Shown in pieces: positions 41,065 through 52,990 of a DNA stretch of 64,000 bases. The notes under the pieces are model-generated. The model searched no databases and was not told where the DNA came from. It worked only from the letters and a program-made list of their open reading frames with translations. Where the stretch lies: NCBI RefSeq assembly GCF_030758975.1, contig NZ_CP132359.1:1318811-1382810 (forward strand), written 5' to 3'. The translations under genes and the position numbers were made by a program. The first letter of the stretch is position 1; each line of letters opens with the position of its first letter. Source of the stretch: Bosea beijingensis. GTDB taxonomy: Bacteria; Pseudomonadota; Alphaproteobacteria; Rhizobiales; Beijerinckiaceae.

Positions 41065-41385
41065 TCAGCCCTGACGCTCGGGCGTGCGGACGACGAGCCC
41101 GTCGAGCTCGGCGCGGATACGGATCTGGCAGGAGAGGCGCGAATTCGGGCGCACGTCGAAGGCGAAGTCCAGCATGTCCTCCTCCATCGGCTCGGCATGG
41201 CCGACGGCGGCGGTCCAGGCATCGTCGACATAGACATGACAGGTGGCGCAGGCACAGGCACCGCCGCATTCCGCCTCGATGCCCGGAATCGCGTTGCGGA
41301 TCGCCGTCTCCATCACCGTCGAGCCGGCTTCCGCCTCGACGGTGCGGCTCTCTCCATGAGCGTCGATGAAGGTGATGTTCGGCAT
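41065..41385 (-). CDS. 2Fe-2S ferredoxin, adrenodoxin/putidaredoxin type
   Basis: A 106-residue ferredoxin. The cluster ligands follow the C-x5-C-x2-C pattern in CGGACACATC, with the fourth Cys in SRLSCQIRI. The ATG at 41385 has GGAG 7 nt upstream and yields the usual MPNITFIDAHG start; a longer frame exists but lacks support. Such ferredoxins feed cytochromes P450 or oxygenases, or act in FeS assembly. No reductase or P450 gene is adjacent, so its partner is unknown. Confidence 0.93.
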   Translation of the reverse strand: MPNITFIDAHGESRTVEAEAGSTVMETAIRNAIPGIEAECGGACACATCHVYVDDAWTAAVGHAEPMEEDMLDFAFDVRPNSRLSCQIRIRAELDGLVVRTPERQG

Positions 41386-41468
41386 GGGAAACTCCGGCGG
41401 CGCGATCTCCGGCACCGCTTAGAGCATTTCAAAGCGGCACGGAACGGGGTTTCGCGCCGCAGCCGTGC

Positions 41469-41807
41469 TCAGGCGGCGCAGTCGAAGCGGGCGATCGCCG
41501 CCCTCGCCTCGGCCGCGGCCAGGGCCAGCGCGTCGAGCGCGGTTTCGCTCGCCTGCTGCTGCGGCCCGGCGAGGCCTGCCTCGATACGATCCGCCGCCTC
41601 CGCCACCTGCCAGGCGCCGACGGCGCGCGCCGCGCCCTTCAGCGTATGAGCCGCGTCCATCCGCGCCTGCCGCTCGGTGCTGCCATGGATGGCCCGCAGA
41701 TGGACGACGCATTGCTGGGCGAACAGCACCAGCAGTTCGCGCTCCAGCTCGTGATCGCCGGCGGTCTGGCGGGAGAGATAGGCGAAATCGATGGCCTTCT
41801 CGGTCAT
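41469..41807 (-). CDS. Hpt (histidine phosphotransfer) domain protein
   Basis: A 112-residue single-domain protein. The phosphorylatable histidine is His54 in DAAHTLKGAARAVGA, the standard Hpt motif, on a predicted four-helix bundle. It would relay phosphate between hybrid histidine kinases and response regulators. It is divergent from the giant scaffold gene, with 262 bp between them. No kinase or response regulator gene is present in the window. The link to polar organisation is suggested only by location. Confidence 0.88.
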   Translation of the reverse strand: MTEKAIDFAYLSRQTAGDHELERELLVLFAQQCVVHLRAIHGSTERQARMDAAHTLKGAARAVGAWQVAEAADRIEAGLAGPQQQASETALDALALAAAEARAAIARFDCAA

Positions 41808-41883
41808 GTCGGACGCTCTTCGGCAGATGTCATCAAATGGCCGCACGGGTCGGCCTCATGCCCTTCAGGAAGCGCCCGGATGG

Positions 41884-41899
41884 TAAACGAGGCGTTAAC
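41884..41899. promoter_or_regulatory. Possible CtrA half-match in the hpt/scaffold intergenic region
   Basis: TAAA-N7-TTAAC differs by one base from the CtrA consensus TTAA-N7-TTAA(C). It lies between the divergent hpt and scaffold genes, 171 bp before the scaffold start. Short motifs arise by chance, so this is a weak candidate. Confidence 0.25.
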
Positions 41900-42069
41900 G
41901 ACGTTTGTGAATCGCGCGGTCAAATGGGTTTCCAACGCTCCGGGGGTCCACTACCCTTCCAATTGGTAAATGATGGGCGCAGTGTCTCCGTTCACCCGGC
42001 CAGAGGCGGCATGGGGTGGCGGAAATCACCGTGTGCGCCCATGTTCAGTAGCGTGGCGAGGCGGCAACG

Positions 42070-45000
42070 ATGAATCGACCCAAGAAGCTCCAGGACCCCA
42101 CTGAAGCTGCGATGTCGGCGATCGAAGAGGCGCTTCGGCTTGACCAGCCCAAGGACGGCACCGACACGCCGGTCGAAACCGAGCCTCGCCTGCCCTCGAC
42201 CAGCGAGAACGACCTGAAGCTCGAAATGCCGCGCGTCGAGCCGGCCCCTGCCTCGCCGCCGCCCGCGCCTGCCGCCCCCGCCCAGCAGCAGCCTGCGCCG
42301 CCGCGCGCCGCGATCGCGCCCGATACCAGCCGCGTCGCCAATGACGACCGCCGGGATTCGAGCTCCCTCGTCCAGGCTTTCGCCGTGCGCCCGTCGAGCA
42401 GGCCGTATTGGTTCGCCGCACTCGCTTCGCTCGCCTGGCTCGGCGGCGCCGCCTTCGTCCTGCTCGGTCGCTACGGCTCGTTCAGCAACGGCCTGCCCGA
42501 GCCCGTCGCCAGCTTCGGCATCGGCGAATGGACGCTGCTCGCGCTCTCGATCGGCGCGCCGGTCGTGTTCTTCTTCGTCCTGGCGGCACTCTATCGCCGC
42601 ACCCAGGAAATGCGCCTGATCTCGCGCGCCATGACCGAGGTCGCGCTTCGCCTCGCCGAGCCCGAGGTTGCCGGCGCCGATTCCGTCCTCTCGCTCAGCC
42701 AGACCATCCGCCGCGAGGTCGCCGCCATGGGCGACGGCATCGAGCGCGCGGTCGCACGTGCCGGCGAGCTGGAAACCATCGTCCGCGGCGAGATTTCGAC
42801 GCTGGAGCGCGCCTATGCCGATAACGAGATCCGCCTGCGTTCGCTGATCGACGAGCTCGTCACCCAGCGCGAGGCGGTGGTCGGCAATGCCGAGCGCGTC
42901 AAGCTCGCCATCAGCGGTGCCCATGACGGGCTCGCCAAGGATCTCGACAGCGCCAGCCGCGCCATCGCGGAAGCGGTCTCGCAGGCCGGCGACCGCGTCA
43001 CCGGTTCGCTCGGCGCGAAGGGCGACCAGATCACGCAGGCGCTCGGCCGCGCCGGCGAGAAGATGATCGAGGAGATCAGCGGCCGCAGCCACGACCTCGT
43101 CGAGCGCCTGCAGATCACCTCCGGCGAAGTCTCCGAGCGCCTGGCCGGCGCCAGCGGCAACCTGTCGGACATGCTCGATGGCCGCGCCAAGGAGATCGCC
43201 AGCTCGCTGGAGCGCACCGGCGCCGTCCTGACCGAGGGCCTGACCACCGGCGCCCAGGACGTCACCCGCGCCATCAGCGAGACCGGCAACCAGGTGGCGG
43301 AGACGCTGACCGGGCGTGTCGAGACCGTCAACGAACTGCTCAAGAACACCGGCGAGACGCTCGCCCGCGACATCTCGGCGCGCGGCACGGAAGCGGCCGA
43401 GCGCTTCGAGGTCAGCAGCCGCAACATGGTCGCGCTGATCGAAAGCCAGAGCGAGGCCCTGCAGGCACGCCTGGCGGAATCGGGCGAGGCGCTGCGCAGC
43501 GCGCTGTCCGACGAGGGCGAGAGCGTCACCACCCGCCTCGCCGAAGTCGGCCGCGGCGTCAACAGCCTGCTCAACCGCCAGAACGAGGCCATCGCCACCC
43601 GTCTGACCGAGGTCGGCGAGAGCGTCCACGGCCTGATCGGCACGCATGGCGACACTCTGGTCGGCCGCCTCAACGAGACCGCGCGCACCGTCGACGACGT
43701 GCTGCGCGAGCGCAGCGAGGCGATCATCCTGCGCGTCAACGACGCCAGCCAGTCCCTCAGCGAATCCGTCGCCCAGCATGGCGACACGCTCACCGGCCGC
43801 ATCACCGATGTCGCAGGCCAGGTGAACGGGCTCTTCACCGAGCAGGGCAGCAAGCTCGTCGACCGCCTCAATGAAACCGGCCAGACCGTCCACGGCCTGC
43901 TGGACCAGCAGGCGGACAAGCTGGTCCACCGCGTCTCCAGCGCCGGCAACGAACTCGCCGATCTCGTCGGCCAGCAGAGCGACGGCGTCGTCAACCGCGT
44001 GTCGCAGGCCGGCAGCGAGCTGGCTCGCGTGCTCACGGAGCGTAGCGAAGCCGCGGTTGCCAGCGTCTCCGATGCCGGCCGCAACCTCGCCAGCCTGATG
44101 GGCGAGCAGGGCGACGCCACCGTCGCGCGCGTCTCGAATGCCGGCGCCGACGTCGCCAAGCTGCTGTCGGAGCGCAGCGAGGCGCTGGTTTCCAGCGTCT
44201 CGGGCGCGGTCAACACGGTCGAGACCCGCCTGCGCGACGAGAGCGAATTGCTCGTCAGCCGCCTGACCCAGGCTGGCCAGGAGGTCGGCGTCGTCGTCGG
44301 CAACGAGAGCGAGCGCCTGATCAACGGTCTGTCCGAGACCGGCATGCGCGTCAGCGCGCTGCTCGAGGAGCAGGCCGGTGCGATGACCGTCAAGGTTTCG
44401 CAGGCCGGACTCGAGATCAAGGATCTGCTCGGCAACGAGAGCCAGGCGCTGGCGAGCCGCGTCGCCGATGTCGGCCGCTCGGTACACGGCATCCTGGCGG
44501 AGCGCTCGAACGCGCTGATCATCCGCCTCGCCGAGACCGGCGCCAATATCGACCAGCAGCTCGACGAGCGCGGCGCGACGCTCGCCGCCCATGTCACCGG
44601 CAGCATCGAGGCGGCGAAGACCGCTCTCGAACAGCAGCAGACCGGCTTCCTCACCAACATCAGCGACACGGCCGAGAAGGTCGGCGCCCTGCTCGGCGAG
44701 CAGCGCGAAACCATGGTGCGCGACCTCGTCAGCACCGGCCGCGAGGTCCACACCCTGCTCGGCGAGCAGAGCGAGGATCTGGCGCGCCGCATGACCGAGG
44801 CGACCCGCACCCTCACCGAGACGATCAATGTCGACGGCCGCCATGTCGCCGACCGTGTCTCCGAGGCGACGCAAGGGTTGCGCGACACCTTCACCGTCCA
44901 TGCAGAAGAGGCACGCACCATGCTCGCCGGCACCGGCCGCGAGATCGTGCTGGCGCTGACCCAGCAGGGCGGGCGCGTGAACGAGGCGCTCTCGGCCAAT

Positions 45001-48000
45001 GCGGAGTCGATGCTGCGTTCGGTCGAGGGCCGCGCGCAGGCTTTGAACGAGGCGCTGGCGCTGCGCCACGACGCGCTGACCAGGCTCTTCGACGAGCGCG
45101 GGCACGAGATCGAGGCCGCGCTCGGCGGGCGTCTCGCCGCGTTCTCGACGCTGTTCGATACGCAGGGCCGCGATGTCGAGAACGCGCTCGCCGCGCGCCT
45201 CGGCGCATTCGAGGACCTCATCGTCAACCAGGGCGGCGTCCTGACCGCCAAGATCTCGGGCGACGCGCAGCAGCTTACCGCCGCGCTCCATTCCGGTATC
45301 GCGCAGGTCGAGAAGCTGATCTCCGAGGACAGCGTCATGCTGGCCGACAAGGCCGGAACGCGCGCGCTGGAAGCGGCCGAGCTCCTCGCCAGCCGCACCC
45401 GCGAGGCGGCGGAGGCGATGGAGAGCCAGATCAAGCTGTTCGAGGACCGCTCCGGCACCAAGAGCGCCGAGATCGCCGGCACGCTCGACAGCCTGATCGC
45501 CCGCATCGACGGCAGCCTGGGCTCGCGCGCCACCGCCCTCAACGAGGCGCTGGTCGAGCGAACGGTCGATATCGCCCGCGTGCTGGCCGAGGGGGGCCGC
45601 GAGGTCACCAAGGCACTCGCAGCCAAGGCCGACGAGATCGGCGAGGTCGTCACCTCCAAGAGCGAGTCGCTCACCCGCACGCTCAGCGACAAGGCCGACA
45701 CGATCAACGCCACGCTTGGTGGCCGTGCCCTCCAGATCGCCGACACGCTCGACCAGAGCGTCGCGCGTTTCGAGGAGCGCGTCGTCGGCCGCCTCGACAC
45801 CGTCTCGCACACGCTCGACACCCGCGGCGACGAGATCGCCGCCACGCTGCAGGGCCGTTCGGAAGCCATCGCCTCCGTGCTCGCCGAGCGGGCGCAGGAG
45901 CTGCGCGCGCTGTTCGACGACCAGGGCGGCGGCATGGTCTCGGCGCTGGCCGGCCAGAGCGAAGCGATCGCTGCCGCGCTTACCGAGCGTGCCGAGCAGT
46001 TGCGCACCCTGTTCGACGATCGCGGGCTCGGCATCGTCGCCGCGCTCGGCCGTCGGGGCGACGCCATCTCGGGCGCGCTCGACCAGCGCGCCGAGCAGCT
46101 CCGCGCGATCTTCGAGGGCCAGGGCGCCGGCATCGTCACGGCGCTGGAGCGCCAGGGCGCGGCCGTCGCCTCCTCGCTGGAGGAGCGGACCACCGCCCTG
46201 CACGCTGCCTTCGACACGAGCAGCAGCGGCCTCGTCGCAGCCCTCGGCCGCCAGGGCGATACGATCACCCAGTCACTCGACGAGCGCGTCGAGACCTTGC
46301 GCACCGTGTTCGATGCCAAGGGCAACAGCCTCGTCGCGGCTATCGGCGAGCAGGGCGCGGCCTTCACCCAGTCGGTCGACGAACGTGTCGAGGCTCTGCG
46401 CGCCACGTTCGACGCCAAGGGCAACGGCGCCGTCGAGGCGCTGAACGAGCGCGGCGAAGCGCTCGCCAACGAATTCGCCTCGGTCGGCGAGATCGTGGTC
46501 CGTGCGCTTGAAAGCCGCGGCAACGCCATCGTCGCCGGCCTGCGCGATCGTGGCGCCGCCATTGCGAGCGCGATCGAGGCTTCGTCCAGTGCTCTGCGCG
46601 AGACGCTCGAAGCCGGCTCGAAGCAATCGGTCGAGGCGCTGGTCGGCACCAACGAGCAGCTCCGCGAGGAGCTCGGCGGCATGCTGGGACGCCTCGGCGA
46701 AGCCAACAAGCTGATGCAGCAGATCGTCAACGGCGCGAACAAGAACCTCGCCGCCGTCGAGAACAGCCTGTCGACCCGCGTCGGCGAATTGCAGACGGTG
46801 ATCGGCACCGTGATGGCGGAGGCCGGCTCGGCCTCGCAGCAGGTCACGGCGCAGATCGCCGAGCTGAAGAGCTTCTCGGAAGGCACGCTGCGCGAGACCG
46901 CGGCGCTGGTGGGCCAGCTCGACGATCGCGGCACCTCGCTCAATGAGGTGACCCAGGCCAGCAGCGCGGCGCTCAACGCCGTCGCCGGCAGGCTGGAGCA
47001 GATCGAGGGCCGCGTCGGCAAGGCTCTGGTCGAGCGTCGCGAGGCGCTTGAGCAGCTCCATGGGCTCATTACCAACCGGACCGACGATATCGAGTCGATC
47101 ACCCGCTCCTTCGGCACGCTGATCGACGATTCGCTAAGCACAGCCGAGGCGCGTGCCCGCCAGATCGGCACCGTTCTGTCCGACTCGGCGGAATCGACCA
47201 CGAACGCCATCGCCCAGCAGTTCGAGACGATCCGCTCGGCCACCGGCCAGGAGCGCGAGCGCACGGCGGAGGCCCTGCGCGCGGCTTATGCCCAGGTCTC
47301 GGCCGAGGTCGGCGGCGAGATCGCCAAGGTCACCGAGCGATTCCAGAAGGCGGCGCAGGACATGCGCGGCATCACCGGCGACATCCAGCGCGAGCTGGAG
47401 GCGACCCGGGCCGAGCTGAAGCGCGGCGTGCTCGAACTGCCGGCGGAAGCCCAGGAATCGACTTCGGCCATGCGCCGGGTCGTGGCCGAGCAGATCAAGG
47501 CGCTGAACGACCTCACGGAGATCGTGACGCGGGCCGGCCGGCGGGGCGACGTCTCGATGCCGATCGACCATGCCGCCAGCCGGCGCCCGGTCGCCGCAGC
47601 GACTGCAGCCGTGGCTGCCGCCGTCGCCTCCCCGGCCCGGCCCGCTCCGGCGTTCACGCCTGCGCCGCAGCCCGCGCCTGCCGCGGAGGAGCCGCTTCTG
47701 CGGCCGTCCCTCGATGCCGCGGCGAGCGAACCCGAGCAGCCTGCCGCGCCGCGCCCGGCCGTCCGCATCGAGACCGCGACGACGCCGACCCGGCCGGCTT
47801 CCGTGCAGGAGGCGCCGCGCCGCCAACCGGAGCCTGCCCCGCAGCAGCAGCCGGCCAAGGCTGGCTGGCTCTCCGACCTGTTGACCCGCGCCTCGCGCGA
47901 GGACAAGCAGCCCGAGCCGAGCAAGCCGACGACGCATTCGATCGAGAAGCTCGATTCGCTCTCCGTCGACATCGCGCGGATGATCGACCATGACGCCGCC

Positions 48001-48279
48001 GTCGAGTTGTGGGACCGCTACAAGCGCGGTGAGCGCAACGTCTTCACCCGCCGGCTCTACACGCTGCAGGGCCAGCAGACCTTCGACGAGATGCGCCGCA
48101 AGTACCGCCGTGACGCCGAGTTCAAGGATACGGTCGACCGCTATATCGACGAGTTCGAGCGCCTGCTCGGCGAAGCGGCCAAGGACGACCGCGACTCGAT
48201 GGTGGCCAAGACCTACCTGACTTCGGAGACCGGCAAGGTCTACACGATGCTGGCCCATGCCAGCGGGCGCTTCGAGTAA
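42070..48279 (+). CDS. Giant repeat scaffold resembling growth pole ring protein (GPR/RgsE)
   Basis: 2069 residues. An acidic/Pro-rich cytoplasmic N-terminus (1-110) is followed by two transmembrane helices (about 112-136 and 154-177), a very long helical repeat region (about 190-1830), a Pro/Ala-rich linker (about 1830-1930) and a conserved charged C-terminal domain (about 1945-2069; DIARMIDHDAAVELWDRYKR). Residues 371-986 are 28 consecutive 22-residue apolipoprotein-like units and residues 1262-1492 are seven 33-residue units. Size, layout and repeats match the Agrobacterium GPR and Sinorhizobium RgsE proteins that organise unipolar growth. Often auto-annotated as kinesin-like or apolipoprotein-domain. 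Orthology is inferred from architecture. A GNRA-loop terminator follows. Confidence 0.85.
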   Translation: MNRPKKLQDPTEAAMSAIEEALRLDQPKDGTDTPVETEPRLPSTSENDLKLEMPRVEPAPASPPPAPAAPAQQQPAPPRAAIAPDTSRVANDDRRDSSSLVQAFAVRPSSRPYWFAALASLAWLGGAAFVLLGRYGSFSNGLPEPVASFGIGEWTLLALSIGAPVVFFFVLAALYRRTQEMRLISRAMTEVALRLAEPEVAGADSVLSLSQTIRREVAAMGDGIERAVARAGELETIVRGEISTLERAYADNEIRLRSLIDELVTQREAVVGNAERVKLAISGAHDGLAKDLDSASRAIAEAVSQAGDRVTGSLGAKGDQITQALGRAGEKMIEEISGRSHDLVERLQITSGEVSERLAGASGNLSDMLDGRAKEIASSLERTGAVLTEGLTTGAQDVTRAISETGNQVAETLTGRVETVNELLKNTGETLARDISARGTEAAERFEVSSRNMVALIESQSEALQARLAESGEALRSALSDEGESVTTRLAEVGRGVNSLLNRQNEAIATRLTEVGESVHGLIGTHGDTLVGRLNETARTVDDVLRERSEAIILRVNDASQSLSESVAQHGDTLTGRITDVAGQVNGLFTEQGSKLVDRLNETGQTVHGLLDQQADKLVHRVSSAGNELADLVGQQSDGVVNRVSQAGSELARVLTERSEAAVASVSDAGRNLASLMGEQGDATVARVSNAGADVAKLLSERSEALVSSVSGAVNTVETRLRDESELLVSRLTQAGQEVGVVVGNESERLINGLSETGMRVSALLEEQAGAMTVKVSQAGLEIKDLLGNESQALASRVADVGRSVHGILAERSNALIIRLAETGANIDQQLDERGATLAAHVTGSIEAAKTALEQQQTGFLTNISDTAEKVGALLGEQRETMVRDLVSTGREVHTLLGEQSEDLARRMTEATRTLTETINVDGRHVADRVSEATQGLRDTFTVHAEEARTMLAGTGREIVLALTQQGGRVNEALSANAESMLRSVEGRAQALNEALALRHDALTRLFDERGHEIEAALGGRLAAFSTLFDTQGRDVENALAARLGAFEDLIVNQGGVLTAKISGDAQQLTAALHSGIAQVEKLISEDSVMLADKAGTRALEAAELLASRTREAAEAMESQIKLFEDRSGTKSAEIAGTLDSLIARIDGSLGSRATALNEALVERTVDIARVLAEGGREVTKALAAKADEIGEVVTSKSESLTRTLSDKADTINATLGGRALQIADTLDQSVARFEERVVGRLDTVSHTLDTRGDEIAATLQGRSEAIASVLAERAQELRALFDDQGGGMVSALAGQSEAIAAALTERAEQLRTLFDDRGLGIVAALGRRGDAISGALDQRAEQLRAIFEGQGAGIVTALERQGAAVASSLEERTTALHAAFDTSSSGLVAALGRQGDTITQSLDERVETLRTVFDAKGNSLVAAIGEQGAAFTQSVDERVEALRATFDAKGNGAVEALNERGEALANEFASVGEIVVRALESRGNAIVAGLRDRGAAIASAIEASSSALRETLEAGSKQSVEALVGTNEQLREELGGMLGRLGEANKLMQQIVNGANKNLAAVENSLSTRVGELQTVIGTVMAEAGSASQQVTAQIAELKSFSEGTLRETAALVGQLDDRGTSLNEVTQASSAALNAVAGRLEQIEGRVGKALVERREALEQLHGLITNRTDDIESITRSFGTLIDDSLSTAEARARQIGTVLSDSAESTTNAIAQQFETIRSATGQERERTAEALRAAYAQVSAEVGGEIAKVTERFQKAAQDMRGITGDIQRELEATRAELKRGVLELPAEAQESTSAMRRVVAEQIKALNDLTEIVTRAGRRGDVSMPIDHAASRRPVAAATAAVAAAVASPARPAPAFTPAPQPAPAAEEPLLRPSLDAAASEPEQPAAPRPAVRIETATTPTRPASVQEAPRRQPEPAPQQQPAKAGWLSDLLTRASREDKQPEPSKPTTHSIEKLDSLSVDIARMIDHDAAVELWDRYKRGERNVFTRRLYTLQGQQTFDEMRRKYRRDAEFKDTVDRYIDEFERLLGEAAKDDRDSMVAKTYLTSETGKVYTMLAHASGRFE
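43180..45027 (+). repeat. 28 tandem 22-residue (66-bp) coding repeats
   Basis: Reading the scaffold protein from residue 371 to 986 gives 28 units of exactly 22 residues with no insertion. Typical features per unit are Arg at position 9, hydrophobic residues at 6/7, 10, 17 and 20/21, and Gly or Ala near 14. Examples of unit starts are ERSEAAVASV, EQGDATVARV and QQADKLVHRV. Confidence 0.85.
45853..46545 (+). repeat. Seven tandem 33-residue (99-bp) coding repeats
   Basis: Residues 1262-1492 of the scaffold protein divide into seven units of exactly 33 residues, each equal to three 11-residue turns. Recurring elements are SEAIA or similar at the start, ERAEQLRTLFDD-like in the middle and GIVAALG-like at the end. 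Confidence 0.85.
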
Positions 48280-48354: not shown

Positions 48355-49068
48355 CTAAGCCGCCGCGCGGAAGCACGCCTCGCCCCTGTTCACGAAACAG
48401 GTCTTGTCGAACAGGGCGAGATCGAGGGGGTTGGGCAATCGTATGTCCGCGATCTCGGGGAACGGCTTGCCCGAGCCTTCGTAGGAACGGTCGATCTGCG
48501 ACAGGAAGACCAGGATCAGCCCCCTCTTCCGCGCGAAGGCTTTCAGCGTCCTCACCTGCAGCGCCAGTTCCGGCGTGTCACGGCGCTGGTCGAGAAGTTG
48601 CAGGTAATCGATCACCGCGACCGTGCCGTGCGGCGCATCGGCCAGCCTTGCGACGATATAGTCGGCGCTGATCGCATCGGAGCAATCGCAGTCGAACAGA
48701 CCTGCGAATTCGGCCGGCTCGACGTTGATCCCCCGCAGGCGGGAGAGCACGTCAGCCGGCGTGTATTCGAGCGTGAGGAAGACGCCATGGTGTCCGGCGC
48801 CCATGGCTTCCGCCAGAAGCGCGAGGCTTGCCAGCGTCTTGCCCTGCCCCGGCCGCCCCGCGATCAGGACGAGATCGCCAGGTTCCAGCAGCGGCCAGAA
48901 CGCACGAACCGATGCCATTCCGGGCTGCTTCGCGACGAGCAGGCTCCAGCCGCGATAGCCCTCCTCAGCCGCGATGCGGTCGAGGGCTGCATGGAGCGGG
49001 ATGCGCTCCGCCCGGCTCAAGAGCCGCGCCTTACGCTTCAACTGATGGATCGGGGCCGACAAAACCAT
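48355..49068 (-). CDS. Truncated DnaB-like helicase ATPase
   Basis: A 237-residue protein equivalent to the RecA-like C-terminal half of DnaB. Walker A is GRPGQGKT (about residues 71-78), LTLEYTP follows, Walker B is VAVIDYLQLLDQ and the sensor motif is FLSQIDR. The N-terminal primase-interaction domain of replicative DnaB is absent, and the usual arginine-Glu-Ser-Gly segment is replaced by DIRLPNPLDLALFD, so processive hexameric helicase activity is doubtful. AGGAGG stands 8 nt upstream of the ATG, so it is a real start. Similar stand-alone ATPases occur in Hyphomicrobiales; role unknown. Confidence 0.82.
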   Translation of the reverse strand: MVLSAPIHQLKRKARLLSRAERIPLHAALDRIAAEEGYRGWSLLVAKQPGMASVRAFWPLLEPGDLVLIAGRPGQGKTLASLALLAEAMGAGHHGVFLTLEYTPADVLSRLRGINVEPAEFAGLFDCDCSDAISADYIVARLADAPHGTVAVIDYLQLLDQRRDTPELALQVRTLKAFARKRGLILVFLSQIDRSYEGSGKPFPEIADIRLPNPLDLALFDKTCFVNRGEACFRAAA

Positions 49069-49256: not shown

Positions 49257-49862
49257 TCAGCGCGCCCAGCGCACGATCTCGACCAGCACCTGCGACAGCG
49301 CGCGATCGAGCGCCTGGGTCGCGCCCGCCCCGTCGACGGAGCCTGCCGGCACGCGCGCTGCGAAGAGCCGCGCACGCTGGATCTGCCCGGTGCGGTCACC
49401 GACGATACGGGCGGTGATCTCGACCACCGCCGTGCCGGTTGCGGCGTCGATGTTGAAGCTGCGGATATTGGTGTTGAGCTGGACATCGGGCGAAATGCGC
49501 TGGCCTGGCCCCGAGACCGAGCCGACCCGGCCGGCATTCTCGAAGGTCTGGATCAGGCGGGCCTGCACCAGCGCGGGAACCCGATCCGCCCATTGCGCGC
49601 CACCGACGAAGGAGAGCGCGCCGCTCGAATCCTTGACGATGACGCGGTCTGAATCGAGCGCCTGAACCGCCGTCGGCTCGGCCACGACCATCGCGGCCCG
49701 CGAGCCGCCGACCTTGCCGAATCCACCCGGTGCCGAGAGATCGAAGGTTGTCGGCGTCGCTCCGCCGCCGCAGCCGGCGAGCAAAGCCGAGGCTGCGAGA
49801 GCCAAGGTCGGAAGGAAGCGGCGAGCCCGGCGGGCCGGAGGAACCTGAACCTCGGTCGTCAT
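49257..49862 (-). CDS. ABC-type transport auxiliary lipoprotein (PqiC/LptE-like) of the MCE system
   Basis: A 201-residue lipoprotein with signal sequence LALAASALLAGC and lipobox Cys near residue 31. The mature domain matches the ABC-type transport auxiliary lipoprotein family (PqiC-like), which sits in the outer membrane next to MCE systems. It is the last gene of the four-gene operon, 3 nt after the MlaD-like gene. It probably docks the MCE tunnel to the outer membrane. Confidence 0.85.
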   Translation of the reverse strand: MTTEVQVPPARRARRFLPTLALAASALLAGCGGGATPTTFDLSAPGGFGKVGGSRAAMVVAEPTAVQALDSDRVIVKDSSGALSFVGGAQWADRVPALVQARLIQTFENAGRVGSVSGPGQRISPDVQLNTNIRSFNIDAATGTAVVEITARIVGDRTGQIQRARLFAARVPAGSVDGAGATQALDRALSQVLVEIVRWAR

Positions 49863-49865
49863 GGG

Positions 49866-51008
49866 CTAGCGGGATCCGTTGTACTGGGGAAGCGGCGGCT
49901 TGCCACCGAAGATGAATTGCTGCGGGTTACGCTCGAAATTCCGCAAGGTACGATTGAGTTCCGTCAGGGTCTTCTTGCCGTCCGAGGCCAGCGACTCGAC
50001 ATCGCGCAGGCCCGGCCCGGTGAAGCGGTTGATGCCGGCGGTGATCTCGGCGGTGCGCTTGTCGAGATTGTCGGCGAGCGTCCGGATCGACTTGGCAGCG
50101 TCGGCGACCTCCTGGAAGGCGCTGCGGCCATCGGGGCCCGATCCGGATTCGAGGAAGCCCTTCGCCGCCTTGAGCACGCCCTCGACCTGATCGGCCGCCT
50201 TGTCGAGCTTGGCCGAGATCGAGGCCGCGTCCTTCACCACCTTGGCGACTTCGCTGCTGGAGCCGCCGAGCGCGCCGGTGAATTTATCGACATTCTCGAC
50301 GATGCTGGTGATCCGGTCACGGTCGACCGAGCGCACCACGGCCGTCAGCTCCTCGCTGAGCGCTTGCAGCTTCTGCGAGAGCGGCTGGATCGTCTCGGCG
50401 ATATTGCCGAAGCCGGCCATCAGCTTGTCGAGCCCGTCGGCATTGTTGCCGAGCGCCTGCGAGAACTTCTCGACATTGCGAACGGTGTTGTTGATCGGCG
50501 TGGCGTTCTGCTTGATCAGCCCGTCGAGCGAGGTGAGCATCCCGTCGGCCTTTTGCGCGACGTTGCGGACGGTCTCGATGATGTCCTGCAATTCGGAGCG
50601 CTCGGCGATGATGGTCGGCATCGGCTCGCCGGGCTTGGCCTTCAGGACCGGCGCCCCCGGATCACCGCCGATGAGCTGGAGCGCGACCACGCCGGCCAGG
50701 CCTTGCGCCTCGATGCGGGCGCGCGTGTCCTCGCGCAAAGGTGTCGTGTTGGCGACCTGGATCACCGCATAGATGCGGCGCGGATCGTCCGACTGGAGCT
50801 CGATGCTGGTGACCTCGCCGACGCGCAGGCCATTGAACAGCACGCTCGATCCACGCCCGAGCCCGGTCACCGTGCCGGTGAAGATGACGCGGATGTTCTC
50901 CTTGCGCCCGGTCCCGCCACTGTTGAACCAGTAGACGAAGCCGAAGGCCGCCGCGAGGACCGCGAGCGTGAACAGACCGACGAGTGCGTAATTGGCGCGC
51001 GATTCCAT
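49866..51008 (-). CDS. MlaD-type MCE-domain protein
   Basis: A 380-residue protein with one N-terminal transmembrane anchor (YALVGLFTLAVLAAAFGFVY, residues 7-26), one MCE domain (about 38-120; VLFNGLRVGEVTSIEL) and a long helical C-terminus (about 150-340). MCE proteins form hexameric rings that carry lipids across the periplasm. Compared with E. coli MlaD (about 180 residues) the C-terminal helix is greatly extended, a form that builds longer needle-like channels in other systems. Located 3 nt after the ATPase gene. Confidence 0.92.
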   Translation of the reverse strand: MESRANYALVGLFTLAVLAAAFGFVYWFNSGGTGRKENIRVIFTGTVTGLGRGSSVLFNGLRVGEVTSIELQSDDPRRIYAVIQVANTTPLREDTRARIEAQGLAGVVALQLIGGDPGAPVLKAKPGEPMPTIIAERSELQDIIETVRNVAQKADGMLTSLDGLIKQNATPINNTVRNVEKFSQALGNNADGLDKLMAGFGNIAETIQPLSQKLQALSEELTAVVRSVDRDRITSIVENVDKFTGALGGSSSEVAKVVKDAASISAKLDKAADQVEGVLKAAKGFLESGSGPDGRSAFQEVADAAKSIRTLADNLDKRTAEITAGINRFTGPGLRDVESLASDGKKTLTELNRTLRNFERNPQQFIFGGKPPLPQYNGSR

Positions 51009-51011
51009 CGT

Positions 51012-51842
51012 CTAGCCGTTCTGTCCCTGCTCTCCCGCCGGCAGTCTGGCCATGGCGCGCTCCCCGCCGAAATAGGCCTTCAACCATGGATGGTCGGATG
51101 CCAGCATCGTCGCCAGCGTACCGACCGCGATCACCTTCTTGTCCGCCAGAGCGGCGATTCGGTCGCAGGCATGATACAGGCTGTCGAGATCGTGGGTTAC
51201 CATGAAGACGGTCAGGCCCAGTGTCTGCTTCAGGGTCATGATCAGATCGTCGAATTCGGCGGCGCCGATCGGGTCCAGCCCTGATGTCGGCTCGTCCAGG
51301 AAGACGATCTCGGGGTCGAGCGCGAGCGCACGGGCCAGAGCAGCGCGCTTGATCATGCCGCCCGAGAGTTCGGAAGGCGCCTTGTCGGCGGCGTCGCGCG
51401 GCAGGCCGACGAGATCGAGCTTCACCATCGCCAGCTCGTCGAGCAGATCGGGCGAGAGCTGAAGATACTCGCGCATCGGCACCTGGATGTTCTGCTTGAC
51501 GGTGAGCGCCGAGAACAACGCGCCCTGCTGGAACATCACGCCGAAGCGCCGCTCGAGCACGCGGCGCTGCTGCGGGTTGAGATCGTCGACATCCTCGCCG
51601 AAGACCTCGATCGTCCCGCGCCGCTTGCGGACGAGGCCGAGGATGGTGCGCGTCAGCACCGACTTGCCCTGGCCGGAGCCACCGACGAAGCCGAGAATCT
51701 CGCCGCGCAGCACGTCGAGATCCAAGCCATCCATGATCACCTTGTCGCCAAAGGCGACCTTGAGATCGCGGACGCGGATGACCGCCTCGGGCTCGCCGGG
51801 GCGTGGTGTCCGATCGGGTTGGGAGGGGTTCTGCTGCGCCAT
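51012..51842 (-). CDS. MCE-system ATP-binding protein (MlaF-like)
   Basis: A 276-residue ABC ATPase with Walker A GGSGQGKSVLTRTILG, signature ELSGGMIKRAALARALA and Walker B IVFLDEPTSGLDPIGAAEFD. The SGGM-x-KR form of the signature is characteristic of MlaF. It overlaps no gene but follows the permease by 2 nt. It energises lipid movement with the STAS-permease and the MCE protein; direction of transport is not evident from sequence. Confidence 0.93.
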   Translation of the reverse strand: MAQQNPSQPDRTPRPGEPEAVIRVRDLKVAFGDKVIMDGLDLDVLRGEILGFVGGSGQGKSVLTRTILGLVRKRRGTIEVFGEDVDDLNPQQRRVLERRFGVMFQQGALFSALTVKQNIQVPMREYLQLSPDLLDELAMVKLDLVGLPRDAADKAPSELSGGMIKRAALARALALDPEIVFLDEPTSGLDPIGAAEFDDLIMTLKQTLGLTVFMVTHDLDSLYHACDRIAALADKKVIAVGTLATMLASDHPWLKAYFGGERAMARLPAGEQGQNG

Positions 51843-51844
51843 CG

Positions 51845-52990
51845 TCAGAACGCGATCGAGGCAAAGAACATGGCGAAGAGCCCGTCGACGACGATGACCA
51901 TGAAGATCGCCTTCACCACCGAGGCCGTGACCTGACGGCCGAGCGATTCCGCCGAGCCCTTGACTGCGAGCCCCTCGATCGAGGCGATCAGGCCGATGAC
52001 GAAGGCCATGAAGGGCGCCTTGATCAGGCCGGCGGCGAAATGCTTCCAGGTGATGACCGATTGCAGGCGGGCGAGGAAAGTGTCGACGCCGATGCCGCCA
52101 TAGAGCCAGGAGACGAGCCCTGCCCCGACCAATCCCGCCATCGCCGAGATGAAGGTCAGGATCGGCAGCGAGATGATCAGCGCGAGGATGCGCGGCACCA
52201 CCAGCACCTCGATCGGATCCAGGCCCATCACGCGCAGCGCATCGATCTCCTCGCGCATCTTCATCGAGCCGATCTCGGCCGTGAAGGCCGAGCCCGAGCG
52301 GCCGGCGATCATGATCGAGGTCAGCAGCACCGCGAGCTCGCGCAGGATCAGGATGCCGGTGAGGTTCACGACGAAGGCGGAGGCGCCGAACTGCTGGAGC
52401 TGGAAGATGCCCTGCTGCGCGACGATGCAGCCGACGAGGAACGAGATCAGCATGATGATCGGCGCGCCGTTGAAGGCGATCAGCTCGATCTGGTTGACCA
52501 GGGACGGGCCCCGGAACTTGCGCGGGCCGAGCACGACGCTGGCCGAGCCGACGACGACCTCGCCGAGGAACATCGCGCCGCCGACCATGTCCCGCCCGAA
52601 GCGCACGACGCCCTCGCCGATATCGACGAGGATGTCGACCACCCCGACATGCCGGTGGGGCTTCGGCGGATCGTCGTCATGAACCTGCACTTCGGCAAGG
52701 AGGATACCGTGCTCGGGCCTGCTGCTGACGAGCTCGACTTCGACACCGTCCCGACCCTGTCTGGCCTTGAGGCGGTTGAGGACATAGGCACCGAGCGTGT
52801 CGAGCCGCGTCACCTCGGACAGGTCGATGCGTGCTCCGGGCGCCTCGTGCAGGCGCTCGCCGATCTCGCCGATCAGTTCTTCGATGCGTGGGGCGCGATC
52901 GGCACTCCAGGAGCCCGAAAGCGCCACCGCGAGCACGCCCGCGTCGTCGCGGAGGTTCGCCTGCGGTTCGGCGGTATCGAGGCTCGCCAT
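51845..52990 (-). CDS. MlaE-type permease with N-terminal STAS domain
   Basis: A 381-residue fusion: an N-terminal STAS-like domain (about residues 10-110; RIDLSEVTRLDTLGAYVLNR) and a C-terminal MlaE permease domain (about 130-381; ALRVMGLDPIEVLVVPRILA and GLIKAPFMAFVIGLIASIEG). In E. coli the STAS protein MlaB is separate; the fusion is common in alphaproteobacteria. It is the first gene of the operon and is preceded by a 310-bp non-coding region. Confidence 0.92.
   Translation of the reverse strand: MASLDTAEPQANLRDDAGVLAVALSGSWSADRAPRIEELIGEIGERLHEAPGARIDLSEVTRLDTLGAYVLNRLKARQGRDGVEVELVSSRPEHGILLAEVQVHDDDPPKPHRHVGVVDILVDIGEGVVRFGRDMVGGAMFLGEVVVGSASVVLGPRKFRGPSLVNQIELIAFNGAPIIMLISFLVGCIVAQQGIFQLQQFGASAFVVNLTGILILRELAVLLTSIMIAGRSGSAFTAEIGSMKMREEIDALRVMGLDPIEVLVVPRILALIISLPILTFISAMAGLVGAGLVSWLYGGIGVDTFLARLQSVITWKHFAAGLIKAPFMAFVIGLIASIEGLAVKGSAESLGRQVTASVVKAIFMVIVVDGLFAMFFASIAF

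Follow-up and report, generated by a model that had tools for sequence, protein, structure and literature searches.

The 64,000-nucleotide stretch of the Bosea beijingensis genome analysed here (hereafter the window; contig NZ_CP132359.1, positions 1,318,811 to 1,382,810, from a genome of one contig of 5.56 Mb) encodes a 2,069-residue protein that is very probably the Bosea orthologue of the growth pole ring protein GPR of Agrobacterium tumefaciens and of RgsE of Sinorhizobium meliloti, and that would accordingly organise polar wall growth and be expected at the cell pole in Bosea as well. The family itself is already known; what is added here is the 11-residue register of its helical rod, the contrast in that register with relatives from other orders, and the neighbouring gene for a histidine phosphotransfer (Hpt) protein. 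The original prediction had described a giant protein whose N terminus holds two membrane helices, followed by an exceptionally long helical repeat region, a linker rich in Pro and Ala, and a C-terminal domain that is conserved; each of these elements was recovered (Table 1): two N-terminal hydropathy peaks, from which both membrane helices were called; PF01442 (apolipoprotein) in 12 stretches (E 1.1e-64, 218.1 bits against a gathering score of 90), with a periodicity far above that of shuffled sequences; a linker of 119 residues, of which 24 are Pro and 29 are Ala; and a C-terminal domain for which AlphaFold2 predicted six helices in the last 120 residues (mean pLDDT 82, pTM 0.75). No convincing PDB match was found for this predicted 120-residue structure.

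Orthology is argued most directly by the non-repetitive parts of the protein. A reciprocal search and an alignment of the C terminus, both proposed as checks in the original prediction, were run against S. meliloti RgsE and agreed with it. Searched with tblastn against plasmid records, the last 150 residues matched six records, four of them from Sinorhizobium, and in S. meliloti Ak57 CP090106.1 (L161) they matched a single place, a uniqueness that holds for that record, which is one replicon of the strain. The gene there is named 'kinesin' and encodes 2,089 residues, with 58.8% identity over 91% of the query; conversely, this protein gave six matches in the B. beijingensis genome, all inside the GPR frame. 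Between the two proteins, the C-terminal domain is identical at 78/112 positions (70%) and the juxtamembrane segment at 54/100 (100 residues from residue 177), and PF01442 matches the S. meliloti protein in 12 stretches as well (E 7.6e-77). Upstream, on the opposite strand, both species carry an Hpt gene followed by a ferredoxin gene, while their downstream genes differ. That the S. meliloti 'kinesin' is RgsE (SMc00190) rests on its size of 2,089 residues and on the cytochrome bc1 genes that adjoin it. The record is labelled pSymB, is 3.7 Mb long and bears rgsE, fol and cytochrome bc1 genes; because of its length it is probably the chromosome filed as a plasmid. The features common to GPR and RgsE (two N-terminal membrane helices, PF01442 repeats, Pro-rich linker, C-terminal domain and neighbourhood) were thus tested against the S. 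meliloti protein; GPR itself (Atu1348; published length 2,115 residues) is close in size to the window's protein, and RgsE is described as a 2,089-residue GPR homologue at 42% identity (PMC7327166).

The warning that such proteins are commonly mis-annotated as kinesin or apolipoprotein was also apt, given the names of the S. meliloti protein and of further homologues; a kinesin motor domain was not found among the seven Pfam matches of the window's protein up to E 0.1. A ZorA identity was rejected at 28 bits against an NCBIfam ZorA cut-off of 250 bits.

The frame itself starts with ATG and has no internal stop in 2,069 codons, with a G+C content of 0.72/0.49/0.91 at the three codon positions. 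Compared with a Bosea locus whose protein is 98% identical over the first 299 residues (L001), the gene differs at 76/50/323 sites in codon positions 1/2/3, and since the differences from six Bosea-group orthologues likewise concentrate at position 3, we regard the gene as real and under protein-level selection. Tandem repeats of 99 and 33 bases are still detectable in its DNA. Two long antisense open reading frames lie opposite it (41992-46203 and 42813-47264, both on the reverse strand; 1,403 and 1,483 residues) and probably mirror its repeated, G+C-rich coding sequence.

The 11-residue rod and relatives in other orders

Residues 227-1739 of the helical stretch (1,513 residues) contain no Pro, Cys or Trp, and their hydrophobicity has a single dominant frequency of 98.2 degrees per residue (power 140.6 versus at most 10.5 in 40 shuffles), which corresponds to 11 residues per three turns (360 x 3/11 = 98.18 degrees). 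The rod keeps in phase over about 1,342 residues, compared with 198-253 in five shuffles. By angle, LIVMF make up 88% and 77% at two of the 11 positions, and Gly makes up 34% at the next; because the bins follow the local hydrophobic moment, the positions contrast more sharply than they otherwise would. This pattern has the 3-4-4 spacing of a hendecad core. Length variation respects the same unit: among 34 Bosea-group proteins (70 unequal-length pairs at least 86% identical, with simultaneous two-sided gaps excluded), all 114 clean rod indels of at least five residues were multiples of 11 (22, 33, 44, 66 or 88), nine more were of 4 residues, and indels in the end regions were 1-14 residues long. 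Because the pairs share ancestry, these 114 indels do not represent 114 events. We found no report joining GPR with the hendecad in the literature searched, and the main text of PMC8262873 does not contain the words repeat, 11-mer, 22-amino, heptad, periodic or histidine.

Homologues are present in nearly all the genomes surveyed from the order Hyphomicrobiales. Its C-terminal 179 residues found a match in 59/60 genomes of the family, mostly at one place in one long frame, and across the order an N-terminal profile (A2) matched 146 and a C-terminal profile (A1) 141 of 150 genomes, or 131/131 and 127/131 when the near-complete, little-contaminated genomes are taken. In a survey of the class, a C-terminal profile (A3) matched 105/289 genomes, including four of the family to which the window belongs; a further search gave named matches that include Tistlia, Kiloniella, Dongiaceae and Sphingomonadaceae. 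For Emcibacterales and Rhodospirillales, distant homologues of RgsE had already been published (PMC7327166). Relatives outside the order share the C-terminal domain, the N-terminal hydrophobic segments (two hydropathy peaks in 28 of the 40 loci L194-L233, one in 11, none in one cut frame) and sometimes a divergent Hpt gene, as illustrated by a 774-residue GPR-like protein from Sphingomonas (L163:6015-8339, forward strand) that is 31% identical to the window's last 150 residues. They differ in being mostly 650-1,400 residues long and in the geometry of the rod, which mostly follows 25 residues per seven turns.

The best lag was 11 or 22 in 39/39 Bosea-group proteins, the window's included, and in 54/56 from other Hyphomicrobiales (L042-L162), with a spectral peak at 97.8-98.7 degrees in 94 of these 95, whereas of 40 rods from outside the order (L163 and 39 of L194-L233), 32 had a best lag of 25 and six one of 11, and not one peaked in that interval. 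A Hyphomicrobiales set picked to take in short and MreB-bearing cases (L234-L253) was mixed, with a best lag of 11 or 22 in 18/20 and the 97.8-98.7 degree peak in only 10/20. Four proteins from other orders (L205, L207, L229 and L230) have frames of 1,979-2,418 residues with other beats, so giant size is not restricted to the 11-residue form. By coiled-coil theory, 25 residues per seven turns gives a left-handed coil and 11 per three a straight or slightly right-handed one; the contrast between orders may reflect an evolutionary change in rod geometry.

GPR length, MreB and the Hpt neighbour

No match of MreB strength was found in the B. beijingensis genome: among the matches listed, the best to the MreB profile (60.8 bits, in a 666-residue frame) is probably DnaK. 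When genomes with a match of at least 250 bits were counted as MreB-bearing, 18/150 genomes of the order qualified (255-485 bits), with a 103-bit fragment (G068) set aside; save for the second MreB piece of G184, the remaining matches listed scored 50-64 bits, mostly in frames of about 600-800 residues, and are probably DnaK as well. Both ends of GPR fell in a frame of the same length in 126 genomes of the order. These frames measured 915-1,498 residues from stop to stop in 15 MreB-bearing genomes and, in 110 genomes without MreB, exceeded 1,500 residues in 83 and not in 27; compared by family medians (9 families with and 37 without MreB), GPR length differed at p = 0.0015, a value uncorrected for phylogeny. 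Rgs proteins and MreB have been suggested to be mutually exclusive (PMC7327166). Since 15 genomes of the order have both, a GPR-family protein and MreB are not mutually exclusive in this sample, which limits the published exclusivity for this one Rgs protein; none of the 15, however, has the giant form (>1,500 residues).

Immediately upstream of the GPR gene, and divergent from it, lies the gene of a single-domain Hpt protein. PF01627 has four matches in this genome, three of them in frames of 801-878 residues, and the only small one (a 128-residue frame) is the neighbour of GPR. A divergent Hpt frame was adjacent in 116/159 loci having at least 900 upstream bases, as counted with an Hpt profile that started from the proteins of the window, of S. 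meliloti and of Sphingomonas and was then iterated on adjacent matches, and was thus partly trained on its own finds. Where 2,500 or more upstream bases were available, Hpt was adjacent in 100/114 loci from Hyphomicrobiales, 39 of which belong to the Bosea group, and ferredoxin lay within 3 kb in 111/114; in other orders the counts were 10/37 and 1/37, and in three plasmid-collection loci, counted apart, 3 and 2. Of 117 adjacent Hpt proteins, 95 carry H-x-x-K-G, another 17 retain the His but not the Lys, and in 5 the His is missing. These five comprise the Sphingomonas Hpt-like protein (L163:5619-5912, reverse strand), which has lost the phosphorylatable histidine, the proteins of three genomes that belong to a single family outside the order (L196, L198 and L200), and that of one metagenome-assembled genome of Hyphomicrobiales. 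No description of a GPR-adjacent Hpt gene was found in the literature on Hpt and polar growth in Rhizobiales, PMC9022086 included, as far as the available portions of these sources go, and no paper searched mentions four presumed locus tags of neighbouring genes.

We hypothesise that a phosphorelay controls GPR. An alternative interpretation, which we hold to be evenly balanced with its negation, is that the Hpt protein is an unrelated passenger in a conserved block of genes, with no role connected to GPR. Within Hyphomicrobiales the Hpt link shows no more than a conserved block, because ferredoxin is at least as well conserved there; in addition, Hpt stands on the same strand and 1.8-5.4 kb away at L070, L079 and L157, and 27/37 loci of other orders have no Hpt beside GPR. 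These points are countered by the other orders, where Hpt is a more frequent neighbour than ferredoxin, by the histidine kept in 112/117 adjacent Hpt proteins, and by the absence from this genome of any other small single-domain Pfam Hpt. Because the Hpt neighbour spreads wider across orders, its link seems the older, and these distributions suggest that Hpt-GPR adjacency may predate ferredoxin-GPR adjacency.

Table 1. Features of the GPR locus in the window (positions of the window; residues of the 2,069-residue protein).
Feature	Position	Strand	Basis
2Fe-2S ferredoxin gene	41065..41415	-	PF00111; neighbour survey
Divergent single-domain Hpt gene, motif HTLKG	41469..41846	-	PF01627, E 1.1e-8, above cut-off
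Region between the Hpt and GPR genes, presumably a divergent promoter	41847..42069		one GANTC, a GTTAAC
GPR/RgsE orthologue (very probable), 2,069 aa	42070..48279	+	open reading frame, translation, Pfam, comparison with RgsE
First membrane helix, residues ~112-133	42403..42468	+	hydropathy peak
Second membrane helix, residues ~153-175	42526..42594	+	hydropathy peak
Conserved juxtamembrane segment, residues 177-235 (RTQEMR...RREVAAMGDGIERA)	42598..42774	+	13-sequence alignment
In-phase 11-residue helical rod, residues ~226-1567	42745..46770	+	98.2 degrees per residue peak, locked phase
Pro/Ala-rich linker, residues 1839-1957	47584..47940	+	composition
Conserved all-helical C-terminal domain, residues 1958-2069	47941..48276	+	alignments; AlphaFold2 model of last 120 residues

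Proposed mechanism and alternatives

The steps proposed for GPR follow from published work on the relatives in Agrobacterium, Sinorhizobium and Brucella, where the GPR ring and the effects of C-terminal deletions (PMC8262873), the topology, partners and depletion phenotype of RgsE (PMC7327166) and the new-pole position of the Brucella homologue (PMC9938171) have been described. By extension, the two helices would hold the Bosea protein in the inner membrane, the rod would reach into the cytoplasm at the new pole, the protein would multimerise into a ring, and the C-terminal domain together with the rod would organise the cell-wall synthesis machinery there, replacing MreB as spatial organiser; GPR/RgsE is a leading candidate organiser of wall growth in rods without MreB. 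To these steps we would add that the beat of 11 residues per three turns would make the rod nearly straight, so that its length could shift by whole 11-residue units with the hydrophobic seam intact, and that the seam would either let rods pair as a coiled coil, straight or slightly right-handed, or rest on the membrane.

Apolipoproteins A-I, A-IV and E have an 11/22-residue amphipathic period too, in 22-residue helices punctuated by proline. An alternative reading of the same orthologue, which we regard as possible although doubtful, is that of a lipid handler resembling apolipoproteins, with an 11/22-residue amphipathic helix that would skim the membrane and sort lipids at the pole. It draws on the PF01442 score above cut-off and on the shared period, and Zupan et al. 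argue for lipid sorting or sequestering (PMC8262873), but the window's protein is membrane-anchored and far longer than the apolipoproteins, its rod is devoid of proline across 1,513 residues, and its hydrophobic stripe is narrow, two positions of 11, and also fits a 3-4-4 coiled-coil core. The likeness to PF01442 is a pattern match, not demonstrated common descent.

We caution that several observations weigh against the reading of the window's protein as a GPR/RgsE orthologue organising polar growth. The rod is only 22% identical to that of RgsE (301/1357), from which it follows that rod function rests on pattern, not sequence; and the RgsE rod is less strictly 11-periodic, with its peak at 98.5 degrees, a power of 52.2 and a locked stretch of 880 residues versus 1,342. 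No localisation or phenotype of any Bosea protein and no report of polar growth in Bosea were found in the literature searched, and other polar-growth factors are unconfirmed in this genome because a 7TMR-DISM match, possibly RgsP, scored 27.3 bits against a cut-off of 29. The low rod identity, the weak matches of generic coiled-coil models (ZorA-like and others) and the dependence of the PF01442 match on the repeat would also suit a giant coiled-coil protein that is paralogous or convergent and has another job, matched through low-complexity helical repeats, but that explanation appears largely refuted, and highly improbable, given a match carried by the non-repetitive C-terminal domain and juxtamembrane segment, reverse matches confined to one frame and upstream neighbours common to both species.

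TipN, the new-pole landmark of Caulobacter crescentus, likewise has two membrane helices and a polar role. The similarity of GPR to TipN is already in print, as a likeness or analogy (PMC8546619, PMC13170164); TipN differs in its length of 882 residues (PMC13170164) and was likened to GPR by description. A more far-reaching scenario, which we put forward as speculation and think unlikely to hold as a whole, is that in Hyphomicrobiales an ancestral new-pole protein with a left-handed rod of 25 residues per seven turns was rebuilt as a near-straight 11/3 rod that could be extended by whole 11-residue steps and that would serve, in lineages that had lost MreB, as a molecular ruler of the growth-pole ring, with the Hpt protein coupling this scaffold to a phosphorelay that would switch the growth pole on and off. 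As one alpha helix, the in-phase stretch of about 1,342 residues in Bosea would span some 201 nm, near the published 200 nm of the Agrobacterium ring, but the 880-residue stretch of S. meliloti, at 132 nm, warns that this agreement may be coincidence. The strict 11-residue register, the other period in other orders and the phosphotransfer neighbour are each open to direct experiment.

On the matter of rod dimensions, PMC8262873 puts the length of 1,700 extended residues at 600 nm; in an alpha helix, where each residue adds 0.15 nm, the same number would measure about 255 nm. Downstream of GPR, both on the reverse strand, lie a DnaB/KaiC-like ATPase (48355-49068) and a lipid transport cluster of the MlaE/ABC/MlaD/lipoprotein type (49257-52990).

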